Source of the DNA: Diabrotica undecimpunctata | Lineage: Eukaryota; Arthropoda; Insecta; Coleoptera; Chrysomelidae | Direction of reading: 5' to 3' | DNA: 64,000 bases | Assembly (NCBI RefSeq): GCF_040954645.1 | Contig: NC_092804.1 | Location: 93,380,862 to 93,444,861, forward strand | In this document: piece by piece, positions 22,000 through 64,000 of the stretch | Numbering within the stretch: the first letter of the stretch is position 1 | How the letters are laid out: each line of letters begins with the position of its first letter | The notes under the pieces: model-generated | Told to the model about the DNA's origin: nothing | Seen by the model: only the letters and a program-made list of their open reading frames with translations | Database searches by the model: none | Program-made: the position numbers and the translations under genes

Positions 22000-22198
22000 C
22001 GCAGGAGTTTAGAAGTATATGCAATATCGTAAATACGGATCCCAAAAATGGTTTATCCTTTTGTGGAGTCCACTTAATCCTACGTGTTGGTCGGAGTCTA
22101 CATAAAGCGCTACTTAGATAATAAAATACACGGTGTATATTCTACTGGAGTTAGTATAATACCGTTTTAGAACGGAGCTTACATTAACCGCTAGATGT
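22000..22198 (-). repeat. Right terminus related to the one at 12306
   Basis: In reverse complement it starts ATCTAGCGGTTAATGTAAGC, has GACTCCGACC and TTAAGTGGACTCCAC motifs, and carries TTTTTGGGATCCGTATTTAC about 150 bp in. It ends at the (TA)n tract at 22199, mirroring the left terminus at 12306. Confidence 0.45.
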
Positions 22199-22222
22199 AT
22201 ATATATATATATATATATATAT
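22199..22222. repeat. (TA)n microsatellite
   Basis: About 12 units. The 5' LTR of gypsy element A starts at its last base. Confidence 0.95.
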
Positions 22223-22291
22223 TGTTACGATAGATGGTGACGTGTCGTATGACTCAGAACGGTAAACATGTTTATTACTAATATGCTTATT
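22223..22291 (+). repeat. Truncated 5' LTR of gypsy element A
   Basis: Identity with the 3' LTR start is nearly complete (one visible substitution) until ATGCTTATT at about 22291. The sequence then switches to gag-like coding, so a deletion removed the rest of the LTR and the leader. Confidence 0.85.
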
Positions 22292-22318
22292 CATTCGAGT
22301 ATTTTCTAGTAAGAAGAT

Positions 22319-22918
22319 CGACGGGTCGACGGGAAAACAAAGTTTCTAAAGAGATTTCTTCTCTGGAAAGCAAAGTTGCTGCCGATAAGTTGGCCTTCGA
22401 AGAAAAGATGAAAGAGATGGAAAGGAAGATGGAGGAAACAGGGACAGCAGAGAGAGGACACAATCCAATTACAATAGAGACAAAAGAAGACGAGACCAAG
22501 TGTAAGTTGGAAACACGACCGAAATTTGAAGGAAGTGGAGGATCTGTTCATGTTAAAGTCCCAACTTTCGACGGAAAATCGTCATGGAATAACTACATGA
22601 AACAGTTCGAATCAGCTGTAAGAGCGAATGGATGGTCTGAAAAAGAAAAGGCTGTAAACCTGACTATCGCTCTTCGAGGAGATGCCTTAGATGTGCTTCA
22701 GACCATAGCCGTAGAAGAGACGGATGATTTCGAACAACTGAAGAAGAGGTTAAACATGCGATATGGCCACGAACATTTGGAGCATGTATATCAGTCGCAG
22801 CTTAAAAACCGAAGACAGAAGAAAGATGAGGCTCTTTAAGAATATGATTTAGATATTGCCAGATTAGTACGATATGCTTATCCAACAGCTCCCGAAGACA
22901 TGATGGAAAAATTGTCCG
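22319..22918 (+). pseudogene. Gag fragment of gypsy element A
   Basis: The frame is open through a Glu/Lys-rich coiled-coil-like region (SLESKVAADKLAFEEKMKE), then the capsid-like retrotransposon gag domain: VKVPTFDGKSSWNNYMKQF, EKEKAVNLTIALRGDALDVL and FEQLKKRLNMRYG. A TAA at about 22837-22839 interrupts it, and gag sequence continues after it (EYDLDIARLVRYAYP, EDMMEKLSV). It then passes by deletion into the RT. No zinc knuckle or protease is present. Gag would form the particle that encloses element RNA. Confidence 0.8.
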
Positions 22919-22920
22919 TT

Positions 22921-24618
22921 CAACAGCCAAAACGATTGTTCAGGAAATGAAGAAAGACGGGGCGATAGAACCTTCTACAAGCCCATGGGTCTCTCCGGTG
23001 GTCCTGGTTAAGAAGAAAGACGGAACAACGAGGTTCTGTGTGGATTACCGTTTGCTGAACAACGTTACCAAGAAAGATAGTTATCCTCTGCCTCGGATCG
23101 ACGATACATTGGACACATTGGCTGGAAGTAAATTGTTTCCTACTTTGGATTTGAAGTCTGGATACTGGCAGGTAGAAATGGACCCAGTAGATAAAGAGAA
23201 GACAGCCTTCACCACAGGATCTGGATTGTGACAATTCAACGTTATGCCATTTGGACTCTGTAATGCTCCTGCGACATTTGAGAGGCTTATGGAAAATGTG
23301 TTGAGAGGGTTATCTTGGAAAACATGCCTGGTTTATCTAGATGACATAATCGTCTTGGGGGAGACATTTGAAGAACATTTGAAGAATTTAGAAAACGTTT
23401 TTAATCGACTTAAAGCTGCCCAATTGATGTTAAACCCCAAGAAGTGCCAGCTATTTCAAGGTAAAGTCAATTATCTGGGTCATATAGTCAGTAAAGAAGG
23501 AGTGGCCGTGGATAAGGGAAAAATTGATTCCATTAAGGAATGGCCAGTACCAACGGACAAACATCAAGTTAGAAGTTTTCTTGGACTATGTACTTACTAC
23601 CGAAGGTTTATTAAGAAGTTTGCAGATATCGCTAAGCCATTAACGCGACTCACAGAGGAAGCAAGAGATTACCGCTGGGATACAGACTGCCAAAATGCCT
23701 TTGAGACCTTGAAAAAGCATTTAATAACAGCACCAATTTTAGGGTATCCATTGCCAGAAGGAGAGTTCATCTTAGATACAGATGCAAGTAATGTGGGAAT
23801 TGGAGGAGTGCTGTCTCAGATCCAAGGAGGACAGGAACGAGTCCTCGGATATTTTAGTGAAGTTCTTTCAAAAACTGAGCGGAATTATTGCGTCACGAAA
23901 AGGGAACTTCTAGCAGTAGTGAAATCAGTAGAGAATTTCTATCAATACCTCTATGGAAGGAAGTTTTTAATCCGAACCGACCATGCAGCCCGTAAGTGGT
24001 TAATGCAGTTTAAGAATCCAGAGGGTCAGATAGCCAGATGGATCGAACGACTCCAAGAATACGATTTCAAGATTGAGCACCGGGCCGGAGTTAGCCACAG
24101 GAATGCTGATTCTCTTTCCAAAAGGCCATGTCCAGCGGAGTGTTCCCACTGCAACAAAACGGAATCCAAGGAAGCAGCAGTGCTAAGAACAACGATGGTC
24201 AACGACGACTGGACGCCTACTAAGATCAGAGAACAAGAAAGAGATCCAGTTATACAGAAAATTCGAAAATGGAAAGAGGAAAACCGTCGACCACCTTGGC
24301 AAGAAATATCAAACCTATGCTCAGTAGTTAAGACGTATTCTGCCCAGTCGGACTCATTTATCGTGGAAGATGGCTTGCTCAAACGAGTCCTGGAAAATGA
24401 TGACGGTTCAGAGAAGAGAAGACAGTTGGTGATCCCAAAGAGCAGAATAGCCGAAGTACTTTGTCAGTTACACGACAGTCCATCAGGAGGGCATTTTGGT
24501 GTAAAGAAAACCCTTCAGCGAATTCGGGAACGGTTTTATTGGATGAACAGTTCCGACGACGTAAAAGACTGGTGTAAGAAATGTACTATTTGTGCTACGA
24601 GTAACGGGCCTTACCGAT
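22921..24618 (+). pseudogene. Pol of gypsy element A: reverse transcriptase, RNase H and integrase zinc finger
   Basis: RT motifs: PSTSPWVSPVVLVKKKDG, FCVDYRLLN, FPTLDLKSGYWQVEM (first Asp), MPFGLCNAPATFERLM and LVYLDDIIVLG (catalytic YLDD). A TGA at 23229-23231 stands where RTs of this type have Trp before QFNVMPFGL. RNase H follows with ILDTDASNVGIGGVLSQ, TKRELLAVV and RTDHAARKWL. The integrase zinc finger (H-H-C-C) is visible in LHDSPSGGHFGVKKTL and CKKCTICATS. A stop follows at 24618-24620. The RT/RH block itself is long and well preserved. Confidence 0.9.
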
Positions 24619-25990
24619 AAGTTGATCCAAGAATATATCAGCCGATTTGGAGTGCCTTTGGAGATCCATAGTGACTAAGGCAGGAACTTCGAAAGCGATC
24701 TATTCCAAGGAATATGTGATAGACTAGGCATGAAGAAAACAAGAACTAGCGCGTATCATCCGCAATCGGATGGTATGGTAGAACGAATGAATAGGACAGT
24801 TGGCAAGTATTTGACAAAGATGGTGTCCGATCATCAGCAAGACTGGGACCAATACCTTCCGTTCTTCACAATGGCCTACAGATCTGCTGTTAACGAATCA
24901 ACAGGCCAGATACCAGCCAAAGTCCTATTCGGACGCGAAATGCGACTACCTTGTGATCTAGAGTTTGGGTGTCGACCTGGAGAAGATGTAGCAGGTAAAG
25001 ATTATGTGATCGAATTACGAAGAAGAATGGACGATGTACATGAGTTGGTCCGTTCCCACCTTCAGATCGTTAGCGACCGAATGAAGAAACGGTACGATAC
25101 ACAAGCCGAAAAGGATTGCTTTAAGAAGAACGACAAAGTCTGGCTCTATAATCCCAAGAAGCGAAAAGGTTGTTCTCCCAAATTGCAGCAGTTTTGGGAA
25201 GGCCCATACTTAATTATGGAGAAGATCAACGATGTCATCTACCGAATAAGCAAGATTCCGAGGGGAAAGCCGATGATAGTACACCATAACCGGCTGGCGT
25301 CTTTCGAAGGTGACCACGACGTAGATGAAGAAGTGGAAGTAAACCAAGTCCAAGATGTGTCTGACCTCACGTTTGAGGAATTCATAGGTGCCTATGGAGG
25401 TACCGGTAAAGCAAGACATGGTGTTACTACTGAAGAAAGGCAAGATCTACTCGCTCTCCCCGATGACTACTCGCTGGCCCTTACCATCCCGGCCAGTATC
25501 AAAGACGCACCAGGGTTGGCATCCGTCTTTCGAAGGAAGTTCTGTCGAGTTGCAGAACTTCAATGTCAAGTGCCAGCTCCTGGGAAAGCCTTGAAACTCC
25601 AAGAAATGTCACGTTACCTTTTCTACCTGGTAACAAAAGACATTGCCCGTGACCAACCTACCTACCGAGATGAATGGGAAGCCTTACTTCAATTGAGAGA
25701 GCACGTACGACGTGCAACAGTTAGCCATGCCAAAGTTAGAGTGCCGCCAATTAGATTGGAGGGTTATCCGAAGTATGGTGGAGGAGATATTTAAAGACAC
25801 CGAAGTCCAGGTGTTAGTCTGTTGCAATCCGCATAGTTACTGGTGCGGAGAGAAAACCGTCCCTTGTCATTTTTATACAACTGGAAGTTGTAAAAGAGGA
25901 TCCAGTTGCCGATACCTGCATACCGTTCCAGTTCCGACAAGGTTCCAGGAGGAAACCTCTTTTAAGAGGGGGGCAATGTTACGATAGATG
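24619..25990 (+). pseudogene. Integrase C-terminal half with macro domain and CCCH zinc finger (gypsy element A)
   Basis: Integrase resumes after a deletion with LIQEYISRFGVPLEIHSD (second Asp), a TAA, and then HPQSDGMVERMNRT (Glu). The first Asp is missing. After VWLYNPKKRKG and FWEGPYLIMEKIND come an acidic linker and then an extension. The macro-like part (25417-25825) contains HGVTTEERQDLLALPDDYSL, PGLASVFRRKFCRVAEL, YLFYLVTKDIARDQPTYR and, after a frameshift at about 25715-25735, LAMPKLECRQLDWRVIRSM and VQVLVCC. The CCCH finger (25865-25921) is C-x7-C-x5-C-x3-H. Homologous to 63.0-64.0 kb. The macro assignment rests on pattern similarity to TARG1/OARD1. Confidence 0.8.
25964..25976 (+). 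promoter_or_regulatory. Polypurine tract of gypsy element A
   Basis: AAGAGGGGGGCAA lies immediately before the 3' LTR, at the expected plus-strand priming position. Confidence 0.8.
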
Positions 25991-26355
25991 GTGACGTGTC
26001 ATATGACTCAGAACGGTAAACATGTTTATTACTAATATGCTTATTAGTATGGCGTGACCTTAGTAGAAAACCAGTATGGCGTGACCTTCTAGATTTTTTC
26101 GCCAAGGGTCAGGTCGACATCCTTCGACGAGATTCTAGTTAACGGTGCTTTTTATATAAATACGAAAGTTTTTAAAGAACAGTTGGTTAATATCTGAAGA
26201 TCGCGCGCCGCTTTTAAATTGTACGCACGAATTATAATAAATTGTATAATTCAGATAAGTTATTTAATAAAGACTTTAATAAATTTATAAGTGTTATAAA
26301 TAGTACCTTTTAATAACTAAATAATAGATAAATTAGAATTATTAAAAATATTACA
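25977..26355 (+). repeat. 3' LTR of gypsy element A
   Basis: Begins TGTTACGATAG and ends ...AATATTACA, followed by ATATAG. A TATA-like element (TTTATATAAA, about 26151) and AATAAA signals (about 26266) fit a U3-R-U5 order. Length is about 379 bp. The right end is set by the TG...CA rule and the ATAT flank and could be off by a few bases. Confidence 0.75.
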
Positions 26356-54918: not shown

Positions 54919-55242
54919 TTATTGTTGTTTTTTATCTTGACTTTCTTCTTTTATAACATTTCCTTTTTCATCATAATCTGGCTCTAAGTAAGCAATATAT
55001 GCATATGCTACAATAATCAAGTTTACAGTTACAACACTGAAAAGAACTGACCAAACAGTGTTAGTAAAACCTATCACATCAAAATGCTCCTGCAATATGT
55101 ACTTAGTTCCAAAAAAAACAAAAAAAGGTAATGTAAACATCAAAACACTGAAAAACATAAGTTTTCCTAGCGCTGTTGCTGCTTGTTTTGTTTGTAGAGG
55201 CAAAAGTGATTCATTTGATCTTAGTTCACTCTGATCAGCCAT
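54919..55242 (-). CDS. VMA21: VMA21, V-ATPase assembly factor of the ER membrane
   Basis: 107 codons, one exon, start at 55242 (MADQSELRSNESLLPLQTKQ); the ORF is open further upstream, but an acceptor (TTTCTTTTTCAG|AAGT) falls 4 nt before this ATG. VMA21 is a small two-pass ER protein needed to assemble the Vo sector of the vacuolar H+-ATPase. Two hydrophobic segments are visible: LGKLMFFSVLMFTLPFFVFF (about 26-45) and VWSVLFSVVTVNLIIVAYAY (about 64-83), with a short luminal loop between. The tail is charged (EPDYDEKGNVIKEES) and ends KKQQ, a dilysine ER-retrieval type signal like that of yeast Vma21. Length fits the family (about 100 residues). It appears intact. Confidence 0.9.
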   Translation of the reverse strand: MADQSELRSNESLLPLQTKQAATALGKLMFFSVLMFTLPFFVFFGTKYILQEHFDVIGFTNTVWSVLFSVVTVNLIIVAYAYIAYLEPDYDEKGNVIKEESQDKKQQ

Positions 55243-55250
55243 ACTTCTGA
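55243..55250 (-). promoter_or_regulatory. Splice acceptor just before the VMA21 start codon
   Basis: Minus strand TTTTGCTTTCTTTTTCAG|AAGTATGGCT: a long pyrimidine tract and CAG, four bases before the ATG. The closest upstream donor is only 26 nt away (NSUN5 exon 2, GTAATA at 55272), too short for a normal intron, so the acceptor should pair with a donor further upstream, such as 55592. Confidence 0.6.
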
Positions 55251-55272
55251 AAAAGAAAGCAAAATATATTAC

Positions 55273-55715
55273 CTTTGTGTTCAATTTCTTTAACCTTAGA
55301 GTCACTTAAATGTGCTTTAAATATTTGTTCATATGCACGAATTGTATTTTCGGGCTTGCTCTGTCCTGGAAGGTACATTTTACCCCATAATAATTCCACT
55401 ATTAAAACTTTTGCCAGCCATGGGTTAAACTTAGTTTCTTTAATTAAAAGCTGTGATCTCTTTAATAGAGTTTCTATTTCCACATATTTTTGAAAAAGTG
55501 TCGATACAAGTGCATATATAGCTTTGATATTCTAAAAAGGTCGGATATTATAATTTGTAAAATAAAGTGAAGTTCATAACCTCAATACTCACAGGATGCT
55601 TTTTTTTCTTCTCATATACAAGTGTTTTTATACTTCCTATTCCTTCGCCCACTTCTTTAGCTACCTCAGCAGCTACTTTATACAAACGAGGAACTTTAAC
55701 AGAATGAATTTTCAT
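55273..55715 (-). CDS. NSUN5: NSUN5 N-terminal exons (28S rRNA cytosine-C5 methyltransferase), partial
   Basis: Exon 1 (55715-55593, 41 codons, MKIHSVKVPRLYKVAAEVAK) ends phase 0 at GTGAGT. Intron 1 is 55592-55532 (61 nt, ends TTTTTAG). Exon 2 (55531-55273) encodes NIKAIYALVSTLFQKYVEIE, LIKETKFNPWLAKVLIVELL and EQIFKAHLSDSKVKEIEHK, ending at a GTAATA donor. This is the N-terminal helical domain of NSUN5, which methylates a conserved cytosine in helix 70 of large-subunit rRNA. The SAM-dependent methyltransferase domain and its Cys residues are not found anywhere in the window, so the gene is split by a long intron, broken by transposons, or misassembled. Confidence 0.8.
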
Positions 55716-58941: not shown

Positions 58942-61421
58942 CCCTTAACTGGTATGGCAGGGTCAAATTTGACCCTATTGGAAATTCTTTTGTAATTTTC
59001 GGAAAAACTAGGCGATATGGCAACATACCATTTGAGGTATTCTTTCAAGGCGTGCAACTGCTTCAGTTCCGCTATCAGTCGCCCGCAAGCAATTAGTGGC
59101 TCCACGTGAATATTGTGAATTGGGTCAGATTTGACCCTGCCATACCGTTAAAGGATAATTTCTCGTTTTCGGGTAAGAAGCACAATACTGTTATTTTTCC
59201 AGAAAAAAATACAATTTTGTTTGTTCTTTCAATTTAGAGTTGTGATCGAAGTATAATATGTCGAACGTGCGTGACAAAAGGGCGCCTTTGACACAAAAGG
59301 AAATTGAACATATTGCTGAAACTTTATGGGATACCGACAACGACCTTTCCGATGCAGAGACGATTGTTAGTGATCACGATACGGATAGTGACTACAATGC
59401 TGATAGTGAGAGTGAAGATGAAGCTGTTGATGGCAGTGATAGGCACTCTGTCGAAGAAGTTAGCTTATCTGTTGAAAGTGAAATTGTTGGGGATGAAAGT
59501 GGCTATTTCTACGGAAAAAATAGAAAAAAGTGGGCGAAAACGCCACCTGCGTCTAGCCGTACTCGCGTCACCAACATAGTGTCGCATATTCCTGGCCTTT
59601 CGGGACCATGTCGGACCAATAAGCCAACTACACCCTTGCAGGCGCTCAGTTTTTTTCTCGATGGATACATTATAAATGAAGTTATCGCAAGAACGAATGA
59701 GAAAATAACTGAACTGCAGGCAACCTATGGCGATCAGGCCTTGTCATGTCAGTTTATTAATCATGTCGATGAAGTAGAAATGCGAGCATTTCTCGGTCTT
59801 CTCTATCTAGCTGGAGTGTTCAAGTCGAGTCACGAGGACATAAATTCGCTTTTTGCAACAGATGGAACAGGTCGTGACATTTTTCGTGCAACAATGACTC
59901 TAAAGAGATTCAGTTTCCTGCTAACAGCCTTAAGATTTGACAATCCAGCCACTAGACGACAACGTATTGAAGACGGAGATAAACTTGCTGCAATTTCAAA
60001 TTTGTTTTACAGATTTATTGGAAACTGTAAGATAAACTATTCTTGTGGGGAATACGTAACCGTGGACGAAATGTTGGTTGGATTTCGGGGAAAGTGTAGG
60101 TTCCGTATGTTTATAAAAAGCAAGCCTGTGAAATACGGACTAAAAATATTGTGTTTGTGTGACGCTCGTACACATTATTTGATCAATGCTTTTGTATATA
60201 CGGGCAAAGATGAAAATAGGGCAAATCCAAAGAAGCTATCTATTCCAACCCAAACTGTGCTAACTTTGATTGAACCAATAGCAAATTCGAACCGTAATAT
60301 TACAGGGGACAATTGGTTCACGTCACTAGAGCTGGTTGAAGAATTGCAACGCCAAAACTTGACATACGTAGGTACTATTAGACGGAATAAAAGGGAGTTA
60401 CCTAAAGAGTTCCTAGCTAGTAAGCAACGTGAACCACTTTCCTCGCTTTTTGGATTTACTAAGGATATAACAATTGCGTCATACGTTCCAAAAAGAAATC
60501 GCTCAGTTTGCATGATGTCTACAATGCACCATAATAACATGGTCGAAGAAGGAGCAAAGAAATTACCAGACATCATCTCCTTTTATAACCTAACGAAAGT
60601 TGGCGTTGATGTACTGGACCAAATTTGTGCCAATTACAAAGTAGGAAGACGTACTCGGCGTTGGCCTCTAACTTTGTGGTACCGAATGATGGACATCTCC
60701 GCCGCAAATGCAGGCATAATTTATAATGCTGCTAATCCAAATAATGAGATGGTTCGTAACCGTTTCCTTATTGATTTAGGGAGAGAAATGATCAACGAAC
60801 ACTTAGTTCGAAGAAGTCAAATGAAAAACATTCCTCGGGAATTGAAGGTAACCATAAGGCGAATCAGCAATATCCCAGATGAGGCCCCACGAAGCATAGA
60901 TAACCCTCAACGTCGACAACCTAAGCGTGCCAGATGCTTCTTATGCCCTTACAGTGACAACAAACATCCAATTGTATGTGACGAGTGTAGCAGGCATATT
61001 TGCAAAGACCATTGCAAAACGTCCAACATGTGTACAAATTGCTCCGAACAATAAAATACTGCGCAAAATGTAGTTGTCAGAATTTTTGTTTATTATGTTT
61101 TTTCATGTTTTTAAGTATTTTTCCCTAGGTTTAGGTTTGTTTTGATTAAAACAATTCCGTTTAAAATTATTTTTAATTTTTTCTCTATTTTTTTTTACAG
61201 ATAAGAAAAGCCATGTTAATTTTTATAAGTTTAGCCAGAAGTAGGCCAGATATTATTAAAAAGTATATGTAAACATTATTATTTATAATAAAAAGGATTT
61301 ATATTCGATCTGAATGAAAATTTTTCTGTTTTCTATTTGCTGCATGCAAAAAAAGGCACAGGGTCAAATCTGACCCCGCCATACTTTAAGTGTAATTTTA
61401 AATCACCATACCAGTTAAGGG
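58942..61421 (+). mobile_element. Complete piggyBac element with TTAA duplications
   Basis: Terminal inverted repeats CCCTTAACTGGTATGG at 58942 and its complement ending at 61421, flanked by TTAA (58938-58941 and 61422-61425). Subterminal copies of a palindrome GGGTCAAATTTGACCC (left, about 58970), GGGTCAGATTTGACCC (about 59127) and GGGTCAAATCTGACCC (about 61361) lie near both ends. One uninterrupted transposase ORF is enclosed. Length 2480 bp. All parts needed for transposition are visible, so it may be autonomous. Confidence 0.95.
59258..61054 (+). CDS. piggyBac transposase, 598 residues, intact
   Basis: An acidic N-terminal region (1-85) is followed by the DDE-type catalytic core: D270 in YVTVDEMLVGFRGKCRF, D351 in NITGDNWFTSLELVEEL, and D451/D454 in KVGVDVLDQICANYKVG, close to the D268/D346/D447 positions known for the Trichoplusia piggyBac. 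The C-terminal Cys-rich domain (CFLCPYSDN, CDECSRHICKDHCK, CTNCSEQ) is complete; it binds the terminal repeats in the family. The element is excised seamlessly and re-inserts at TTAA. No stop or frameshift. The start is the first ATG of the open frame. Confidence 0.95.
   Translation: MSNVRDKRAPLTQKEIEHIAETLWDTDNDLSDAETIVSDHDTDSDYNADSESEDEAVDGSDRHSVEEVSLSVESEIVGDESGYFYGKNRKKWAKTPPASSRTRVTNIVSHIPGLSGPCRTNKPTTPLQALSFFLDGYIINEVIARTNEKITELQATYGDQALSCQFINHVDEVEMRAFLGLLYLAGVFKSSHEDINSLFATDGTGRDIFRATMTLKRFSFLLTALRFDNPATRRQRIEDGDKLAAISNLFYRFIGNCKINYSCGEYVTVDEMLVGFRGKCRFRMFIKSKPVKYGLKILCLCDARTHYLINAFVYTGKDENRANPKKLSIPTQTVLTLIEPIANSNRNITGDNWFTSLELVEELQRQNLTYVGTIRRNKRELPKEFLASKQREPLSSLFGFTKDITIASYVPKRNRSVCMMSTMHHNNMVEEGAKKLPDIISFYNLTKVGVDVLDQICANYKVGRRTRRWPLTLWYRMMDISAANAGIIYNAANPNNEMVRNRFLIDLGREMINEHLVRRSQMKNIPRELKVTIRRISNIPDEAPRSIDNPQRRQPKRARCFLCPYSDNKHPIVCDECSRHICKDHCKTSNMCTNCSEQ

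Positions 61422-62680: not shown

Positions 62681-62742
<62 letters not shown>
62681..62742. repeat. (TA)n microsatellite
   Basis: About 31 units. It touches the end of the LTR of gypsy element B. Confidence 0.95.
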
Positions 62743-62745
<3 letters not shown>

Positions 62746-63026
62746 AGCGAGATTAAATAAAACGAGCGGTTCGAATTTATATACATATATTTATTTATAA
62801 CTTTACAGTTCGGTAGTATCTTAACGACTAACTTACTTCTAACATTGTTACCTATATATATACTACAGTTACTACGTTCGAGAATATTCTGGCGTTGTCC
62901 CACCTCTAGTTCGCCTACGTGACCGGTTATTCTCTCTCGCACTCGATACACGGAGAAGCTTCTGGAAGGGTATTAGAGATGCAATGCAACCGTTACCTGG
63001 GCCATGCCGAGAGCATGTTTGTAACA
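62743..63026 (-). repeat. 3' LTR of gypsy element B
   Basis: On the minus strand it starts TGTTACAAACATGCTCTC at 63026 and ends CTCGCTACA at 62743, with TG/CA borders. It is preceded (minus strand) by a polypurine tract TAAGAGGGGAGCAG (63040-63027), the same layout as element A (TTAAGAGGGGGGCAA|TGTTACG). The LTR end touches the (TA)n tract. Length 284 bp. The 5' LTR is outside the window. Confidence 0.85.
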
Positions 63027-63037
63027 CTGCTCCCCTC

Positions 63038-63994
63038 TTAAATCTGATCGTCCCGATCAGCAACTCTATATGTAGGCACAGGATGGCGGAATCTACAGGA
63101 CTCTCCAGCTCTGCATGAACCCTTTAGAAAGAAATAACAGTCTACTGACTTTGAAGGATACGATCTCATCGGGTTAATGCAACACACAGTAATTCGTACG
63201 CCGGTTTCTCGGAAGATTACTTCAAGCATGCTTCTGACAATCTTCCAATCCAGATTATCTAGTGCATGGCCTATCTTGGGTAAGGCCAAATTCTTGATGT
63301 CGTAATTGCACACAATTTTCTTCAAATTAGTTAGAGCACGCCATATATCCTCGTAGCTTGCCCTGTCTGTATACGACCTCCTAGTCACTATATACAACAA
63401 AGATCGAGAACCATCTTCTAATCTCAGTACTCTTCCAACTTTAGGCTGCTGGTTTTTTAACTCGTCCAAACGACCGAATTTCTTATAAAATACGGATGAG
63501 ATTCCTTTAGTCATCTCAAGATCTTGGGCAACACAGTGGGCTAGAGAGACGTTATGCGGAACACTAAAAAGATCCTGCTGAACTTCTGTGGTCACGCCGA
63601 ATCTAGCACTCTTTCTCTCTGCGTAATTTGACATAAATTCATTAAAGCTTGGTCGCCGGTCATCTTTGCTCTCATGTTGAAGGGTTCGTGCTTCTTCTGT
63701 TTCATTTGAGCCAGCATATGGTGCAAGACGATTTATGTGAACTACTTTTGGTTTACCTTTCGGCAACTTCTTAATTCGGTATATTACGTCATTTATTTTC
63801 TTTTTAATTTCATATGGACCTTCCCATTGTCTTTGCAGTTTGGGAGACAAGCCTCGACGACGTTGTGGATTATAAAGCCAAACAAGATCACCTACTTCAT
63901 AGCTTTCACTCTTGCATCGAGAATCATATTGATCTTTCATTCTGTCACTGGCTATCTGGATGTGTTGTCGGGCAAGTTCATGAATGTTGTTCAT
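63038..63994 (-). CDS. Gypsy element B Pol C-terminus: integrase end, macro domain, CCCH zinc finger
   Basis: 318 codons are open from the first in-window Met; the rest of Pol lies beyond the window. Residues 1-95 are the integrase C-terminal region (VGDLVWLYNPQRRRG, WEGPYEIKKKIND, HINRLAPYAG). Residues about 139-273 (63580-63176) resemble a macro domain of the TARG1/OARD1 type: DLFSVPHNVSLAHCVAQDLE, KGISSVFYKKFGRLDEL, LLYIVTRRSYTDRASYED, LALPKIGHALDNLDW, VRITVCC. Macro domains of this class bind ADP-ribose and remove it from acidic residues. Residues 286-304 are a CCCH finger (C286-x7-C294-x5-C300-x3-H304) followed by HPVPTYR. The frame is unbroken to the polypurine tract. Confidence 0.85.
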   Translation of the reverse strand: MNNIHELARQHIQIASDRMKDQYDSRCKSESYEVGDLVWLYNPQRRRGLSPKLQRQWEGPYEIKKKINDVIYRIKKLPKGKPKVVHINRLAPYAGSNETEEARTLQHESKDDRRPSFNEFMSNYAERKSARFGVTTEVQQDLFSVPHNVSLAHCVAQDLEMTKGISSVFYKKFGRLDELKNQQPKVGRVLRLEDGSRSLLYIVTRRSYTDRASYEDIWRALTNLKKIVCNYDIKNLALPKIGHALDNLDWKIVRSMLEVIFRETGVRITVCCINPMRSYPSKSVDCYFFLKGSCRAGESCRFRHPVPTYRVADRDDQI

Positions 63995-64000
63995 TCTTAA

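Follow-up and report, generated by a model that had tools for sequence, protein, structure and literature searches.

A TARG1-type macro domain behind the integrase of insect Ty3/gypsy retrotransposons as a candidate ADP-ribose reader

TARG1 (OARD1, C6orf130) is a hydrolase that uses K84 as nucleophile and D125 to complete the reaction, as described in the available part of PMC6397177. The enzyme acts in vitro on ADP-ribosylated DNA ends, and its D125A variant leaves on these ends the ADP-ribose that the wild type removes (available part of PMC5725667). Thymidine-linked ADP-ribose is also a substrate, and the K84A variant does not rescue cells from DarT (available part of PMC8501950).

The window analyzed here is a whole stretch of 64,000 nucleotides from the beetle Diabrotica undecimpunctata (NC_092804.1, positions 93,380,862 to 93,444,861). 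It contains an element, hereafter element B, which is a copy of a Ty3/gypsy family. In this element the integrase C-terminus is followed by a domain homologous to TARG1 and then by a CCCH finger motif.

Macro-carrying elements in the window and in the genome

Element B lies on the reverse strand. Its open frame, from the integrase C-terminus to the stop codon (63038..64000), comprises 320 aa in the window and extends upstream beyond the window end; the total open frame of this copy, computed from the genome, is 1857 aa. The integrase C-terminal SH3/GPY-type domain (frame residues 37-95; 63716..63892) is recognized above the cut-off in a Pfam scan by SH3_Tf2-1 (PF24626, residues 37-95, E 1.6e-7) and Integrase_p58_C (PF22938, residues 61-94, E 1.7e-12). 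A linker containing a F-x2-FM ... ARxGVT motif, seen in many relatives, occupies residues 96-136 (63593..63715) and connects the integrase to the TARG1-type macro domain (residues 137-273; 63182..63592). The CCCH motif C-x7-C-x5-C-x3-H is placed at residues 288-306 (63083..63139), where PF00642 scores 26.4 bits against a cut-off of 20.5. The stop codon and a polypurine tract (63027..63040) come next, ahead of a 3' LTR of 284 bp with TGT...ACA ends (62743..63026), present as a single copy in the window. The in-frame gypsy-type integrase C-terminal domain, the purine tract and the LTR are the features that place the element in Ty3/gypsy; its reverse transcriptase would lie beyond the window end. 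No chromodomain is found among the Pfam matches up to E 10 in the 320-aa frame.

The macro domain is best recognized through TARG1 itself. A phmmer search against the PDB sequences matches human TARG1/OARD1 to residues 137-273 with an E value of 3e-28, and the predicted structure has the TARG1 fold, which is the closest one in structural comparison. The Pfam Macro profile (PF01661) reaches 17.8 bits on the same frame, below its curated cut-off of 22. The first-pass annotation, made from the sequence alone, had described a TARG1/OARD1-like macro region in the same unbroken frame as the integrase C-terminus of Pol, ending in the C-x7-C-x5-C-x3-H finger just before the polypurine tract, and had expected TARG1 as the best match among the macro families. 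This description is borne out in each of these respects: the frame runs without a stop, the motifs are present, and finger, stop, purine tract and LTR follow in that order.

The second macro-carrying gypsy of the window, element A, is on the forward strand (22223..26355) and has broken frames with RT, RNase H and integrase domains. Its 5' LTR is shortened and ends at 22291 (LTR repeat of 99% over 69 nt); the 3' LTR spans 25977-26355, with the right edge inferred from the TTACA end. Downstream of the integrase C-terminus it has a TARG1-like region, with the same macro and CCCH pieces as element B. The first piece of the macro domain (25429..25725) is supported by a TARG1 match of E 5.8e-11 and by tblastn pieces. 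From about 25709 the frame switches inside the macro domain, and the end of the domain and the CCCH finger are read in a second frame (25709..25939), as indicated by the sequence and by tblastn pieces with P0008, P0012, P0044 and element B.

Both elements have numerous relatives in the 1.74 Gb assembly. A 601-base query from the 3' part of element B gives 1652 candidates, and at least 40 copies, that of the window included, are 99-100% identical. When the genome is queried with Drosophila TARG1 (P0023), 147 of the best 150 of 4718 candidates have no internal stop, and open frames of 1413-1414 or 1803-1857 aa are common in this set of 150. The set includes one host gene (L009), which is also its best match. 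L009 has a 760-aa frame and a macro domain that keeps K84, D125 and the loop MGSG. In the tree it clusters with a similar Aromia protein, P0016 (support 98/95), and these two features indicate that the host TARG1-type gene and the element macro domain are separate. L009 also shows a long charged N-terminal part and an apparent second, weaker macro-like part; P0016 likewise has a second, weak match to the macro profile. A chance fusion or an accident of a single copy, the alternative named in the first-pass annotation, is ruled out by element A, by the many near-identical copies and by the open genomic copies.

Elements A and B both adjoin AT repeats at the outer edge of an LTR (22198-22223 and 62681-62743), and such tracts represent 0.58% of the window. 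The outer edge is recognized in 18 of 40 element B copies, the window copy included. Eleven of the 18 flanks start with an AT/TA run of at least 4, and five, again with the window copy, with one of at least 20; other flanks start with CTAT or GTAT. This suggests a short, NTAT-like target for element B. Targeting to AT repeats driven by the macro domain was considered and set aside: the flanks look like a short target site and are uninformative on the macro domain.

Other features of the window are a piece of another LTR element at 3-998, with aspartyl protease and integrase core in one 331-aa frame, where the macro domain search of the window gives no match, and an uninterrupted transposase frame of 602 aa at 59246-61054 (DDE_Tnp_1_7, E 1.6e-74), which we take to be of piggyBac type. 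On the reverse strand, 54922-55531 contains overlapping frames of two host genes, namely VMA21 (PF09446, E 1.2e-14) and, with its N-terminal part, NSUN5 (PF21153, E 2.2e-15).

Relatives, catalytic site and selection

The relatives recovered by protein searches include proteins of Diabrotica, Exocentrus, Molorchus, Aromia and Pyrocoelia. Shorter macro pieces occur in the dragonfly Ladona (P0027, within the element clade) and in the firefly Aquatica (P0028, whose length did not suffice for the tree). Integrase_p58_C is given for 33 of 47 rows in one protein search and stands above the cut-off in 4 of 10 proteins scanned. The integrase tail is separated from the start of the macro profile by 34-40 residues in the eight proteins measured. 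By a simple pattern, the 68 element rows, many of them incomplete, show the integrase tail in 45 cases, the linker in 46 and the finger in 32, with element B entered as its macro-CCCH piece. None of the 17 host-type rows has tail, linker or finger, and the 21 rows out of 85 that combine tail, linker and CCCH are all elements. The 'element' and 'host' labels were assigned by the analyst: 60 of the 68 element rows have at least one of the three marks, and the eight that have none (P0002, P0003, P0004, P0011, P0024, P0027, P0074 and P0077) were placed by similarity.

Two trees were built after thinning at 96% identity, from rows in which 103 or more residues were aligned; P0064, P0080 and P0081 were left out as judged gene-model mosaics. 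The element macro domains form one clade in both, with support of 100/97 (30 element and 15 host rows) and 99/99 (32 element and 16 host rows). A single capture of a TARG1-type gene by an insect gypsy appears to be the simplest reading. Elements A and B belong to a subclade with support of 91/83 in one tree and 70/90 in the other. In one tree the element clade adjoins the two-macro host genes of beetles and in the other P0075/P0076, with weak support in both cases. No relative of the element was found in the viral contigs searched.

The clade also has a consequence for annotation. Among the Diabrotica proteins named OARD1-like, P0001, P0002, P0015 and P0017 sit in the element clade, and P0003 and P0035 go with the retrotransposon domains by similarity. 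The name 'ADP-ribose glycohydrolase OARD1-like' is therefore misleading for these six beetle proteins, which side with the retrotransposons and not with host TARG1.

Most of the clade keeps the catalytic residues. K84 and D125 are both present in 42 of the 52 element rows covering the two sites, many of the 42 being near-copies from Aromia, and only A- or B-type rows, ten in number, deviate. After thinning to 30 rows, the pair is kept in 20, three are short of D125 and seven have another pair. Twelve divergent rows outside the A+B subclade (45-73% pairwise identity), hand-picked with their residues already known, have 32 of 134 columns invariant, including H32, C33, T83, K84, G123 and D125. 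The TARG1 pattern TKx(30,35)Px[IL]GxGxD, taken from the available part of PMC6397177, is matched by few element rows (6 of 68) and by most host rows (14 of 17), and a relaxed version by 42 of 68 and 14 of 17, with incomplete rows included in these counts; neither the pieces of element A nor those of element B contain the pattern as given in that part of the source. The domain of most lineages is still predicted to remove ADP-ribose. Two changes of the K/D state are counted on the tree of 32 element and 16 host rows; one is read as falling on the A+B subclade and the other on the host row P0034, whose K84 site is K and whose sequence ends soon after.

The A+B subclade has no intact K84/D125 pair. 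The macro domain of element B keeps D20, H32, C33, D37, T83 and D125 (63257-63259), and has arginine at the K84 site (63380-63382) and alanine at the G123 site (63263-63265), all read on the reverse strand. These states (R, A and D at the K84, G123 and D125 sites) are found in 29 of 29 copies chosen by their integrase. The 40 copies chosen by protein all have R at the K84 site, with D in 38 and E in two at the D125 site and a stop in one copy. Among 40 near-identical copies chosen by DNA, the K84 site is R in 38, K in one and T in one, and the D125 codon is GAT in all. The other B-type Diabrotica proteins that cover D125, five in number, have E or V there. In the element A family, K84 is kept and the stretch carrying D125 is missing. 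The 17 element A copies, picked from 139 genomic matches, all lack D125 and all have L at H32, and C33 is replaced by T in 16 and by A in one; 16 of the 17 have no stop in the fetched piece, and five lie in open frames of 1421-1431 aa.

Because the K84 site is arginine and the G123 site alanine across the copies, erasure of ADP-ribose is not predicted for the window copy of element B. The term hydrolase, used for this domain in the first-pass annotation, is not supported for element B, and a simple active hydrolase in the window copy is not favored, given the change of K84 to R. The A+B subclade appears to have given up the hydrolase chemistry and kept the fold.

The macro domain of element B has a low pN/pS. 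Across 406 pairs of the 29 integrase-chosen copies, pN is 0.0092 and pS 0.0499, a ratio of 0.185. This sample comprises the first 30 of 150 copies, less L109, which was dropped for too few aligned macro codons; the integrase is no yardstick here, as the copies were selected for an identical integrase. It was taken as a repeat, since choice by protein score is biased to conserved copies: the 40 protein-chosen copies from 150 (780 pairs) give pN/pS of 0.204 for the macro domain and 0.408 for the finger, or 0.196 and 0.63 without the divergent L057. The 40 DNA-chosen near-identical copies have a ratio of 0.90, with 7 synonymous and 22 non-synonymous variants relative to the window copy, and so look neutral, as dead insertions should. 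Between elements A and B, the macro part differs by 0.47, 0.39 and 0.68 at the three codon positions, the third being the highest. From the low macro pN/pS and this third-position excess, the source elements seem to have kept the macro domain under constraint despite the lost lysine. The linker and CCCH of the integrase-chosen copies have pN 0.0215 and pS 0.0062 (ratio 3.4, few changes). Because pN exceeds pS there within the family, only the presence of the finger across the clade speaks for its constraint.

Candidate functions of the captured domain

For element B, the favored reading is that the macro domain, with arginine in place of the catalytic lysine, acts as an ADP-ribose-binding tether of the integrase and not as a hydrolase. 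We hold this with slightly less than even confidence. A binder is favored on two grounds: element B retains the fold, D125 and a large part of the pocket, and the location matches that of the chromovirus chromodomain. The broader proposal, that an insect gypsy clade converted a captured ADP-ribose eraser to a reader on its own integrase and uses ADP-ribose marks to find or hold the integration site or the cDNA ends, is tentative.

According to the proposed mechanism, the macro-CCCH tail would stay on the integrase past Pol maturation and would do for the element much what the chromodomain at this position does for chromoviruses. The macro part would bind chromatin proteins that carry ADP-ribose, or DNA ends so modified at breaks; nucleic acid would be bound by the CCCH finger. 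As TARG1 acts in vitro on ADP-ribosylated DNA ends and also on thymidine-linked ADP-ribose (available parts of PMC5725667 and PMC8501950), an integrase-borne domain of this type could be expected to partner with DNA ends and with chromatin at breaks. The alanine at G123 in element B and the E or V at D125 in the five other B-type Diabrotica proteins count against a binder. What speaks most strongly against a common role in ADP-ribose biology is the further pocket loss of element A, which argues for another use of the fold there.

The domain may instead be an active ADP-ribosyl hydrolase that clears marks set by host PARP-type enzymes from the element DNA ends, the integrase or the target chromatin and thereby lets integration and repair finish, with another nucleophile in element B. 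Erasure is the likely reading for the main clade. It agrees with a K84/D125 pair that is intact in 42 of 52 element rows and in 12 of 12 divergent rows picked outside A+B, and with the removal of ADP-ribose from DNA ends and thymidine by TARG1 (available parts of PMC5725667 and PMC8501950). When element B is included this explanation is doubtful: all 29 of its integrase-chosen copies have R at the lysine site, none of the 17 element A copies has D125, and TARG1 K84A fails in the rescue of cells (available part of PMC8501950).

On the other hand, the A+B subclade could keep the macro fold only to contact proteins or RNA, for instance in packaging or in dimerizing Pol, with no role of ADP-ribose. 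The element A family is without most pocket residues and yet largely stop-free in the fetched pieces, with long open frames in five copies, and element B combines a low pN/pS with an altered pocket. Such a scaffold has no need of D20, H32, C33, D37, T83 and D125, which element B keeps, and is considered unlikely.

Macro domains of some positive-strand RNA viruses blunt the host antiviral ADP-ribosylation. It is improbable that the domain dampens such a response in its host, an option raised in the first-pass annotation. The TARG1-type residues of the main clade would suit this role, and the structural comparison also returns RNA-virus macro domains, which rank far below TARG1. It counts against the role that both the A and B families have changed catalytic sites, though at least 40 B copies are 99-100% identical. 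A captured gene piece carried without use is already disfavored and very improbable: the neutral ratio among near-identical copies and the changed catalytic residues of A and B would allow it, and the single clade maintained across divergent lineages, with no variation in 32 of 134 columns, the macro pN/pS of 0.185 and the excess of A/B differences at third codon positions speak against it.

An ADP-ribose reader on the integrase remains the favored reading for element B. Its lysine- and arginine-bearing relatives, together with the host gene L009, are a natural set for distinguishing eraser from reader.

Comparison with known systems

What is new here is a Ty3/gypsy element with a macro-type module adjoining the integrase. 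The first-pass annotation knew of no LTR retrotransposon with this architecture. None was found in the literature searched, which covers few subscription journals, and the statement has to be qualified for the one precedent found there, some fish endogenous retroviruses with macro domain proteins mentioned in a review (available part of PMC4977317). These have macro domain or CNPase ORFs and so likewise join an LTR retroelement to a macro domain gene. As described in that part of the source, they are additional ORFs of vertebrate retroviruses, whereas the domain reported here is in frame with an insect gypsy Pol.

The closest single protein is TARG1/OARD1, to which the element B domain is 37% identical with the same predicted fold. 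It differs by its place within a gypsy Pol, by R at K84 and by A at G123. TARG1 residues 40-43 also set the groups apart: they read MGAG in 13 of 17 host rows, MSRG in 38 of 58 element rows and MTKG in all five B-type rows with these positions. The macrodomain of the DarG antitoxin is bacterial and more distant, with 18-21% identity over the aligned part.

With a TARG1-type domain, apparently captured once, following its integrase, this successful insect gypsy clade would tie ADP-ribosylation to retrotransposon integration. In one subclade the catalytic site has changed while the element B domain looks constrained. A parallel in position is that of the chromoviruses, which also have an extra chromatin-type module at the same place, a chromodomain at the integrase C-terminus (available part of PMC3605345); element B has the macro domain and the CCCH finger in its stead. 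If the proposal is true, a reader on the integrase would be the ADP-ribose counterpart of the chromodomain.
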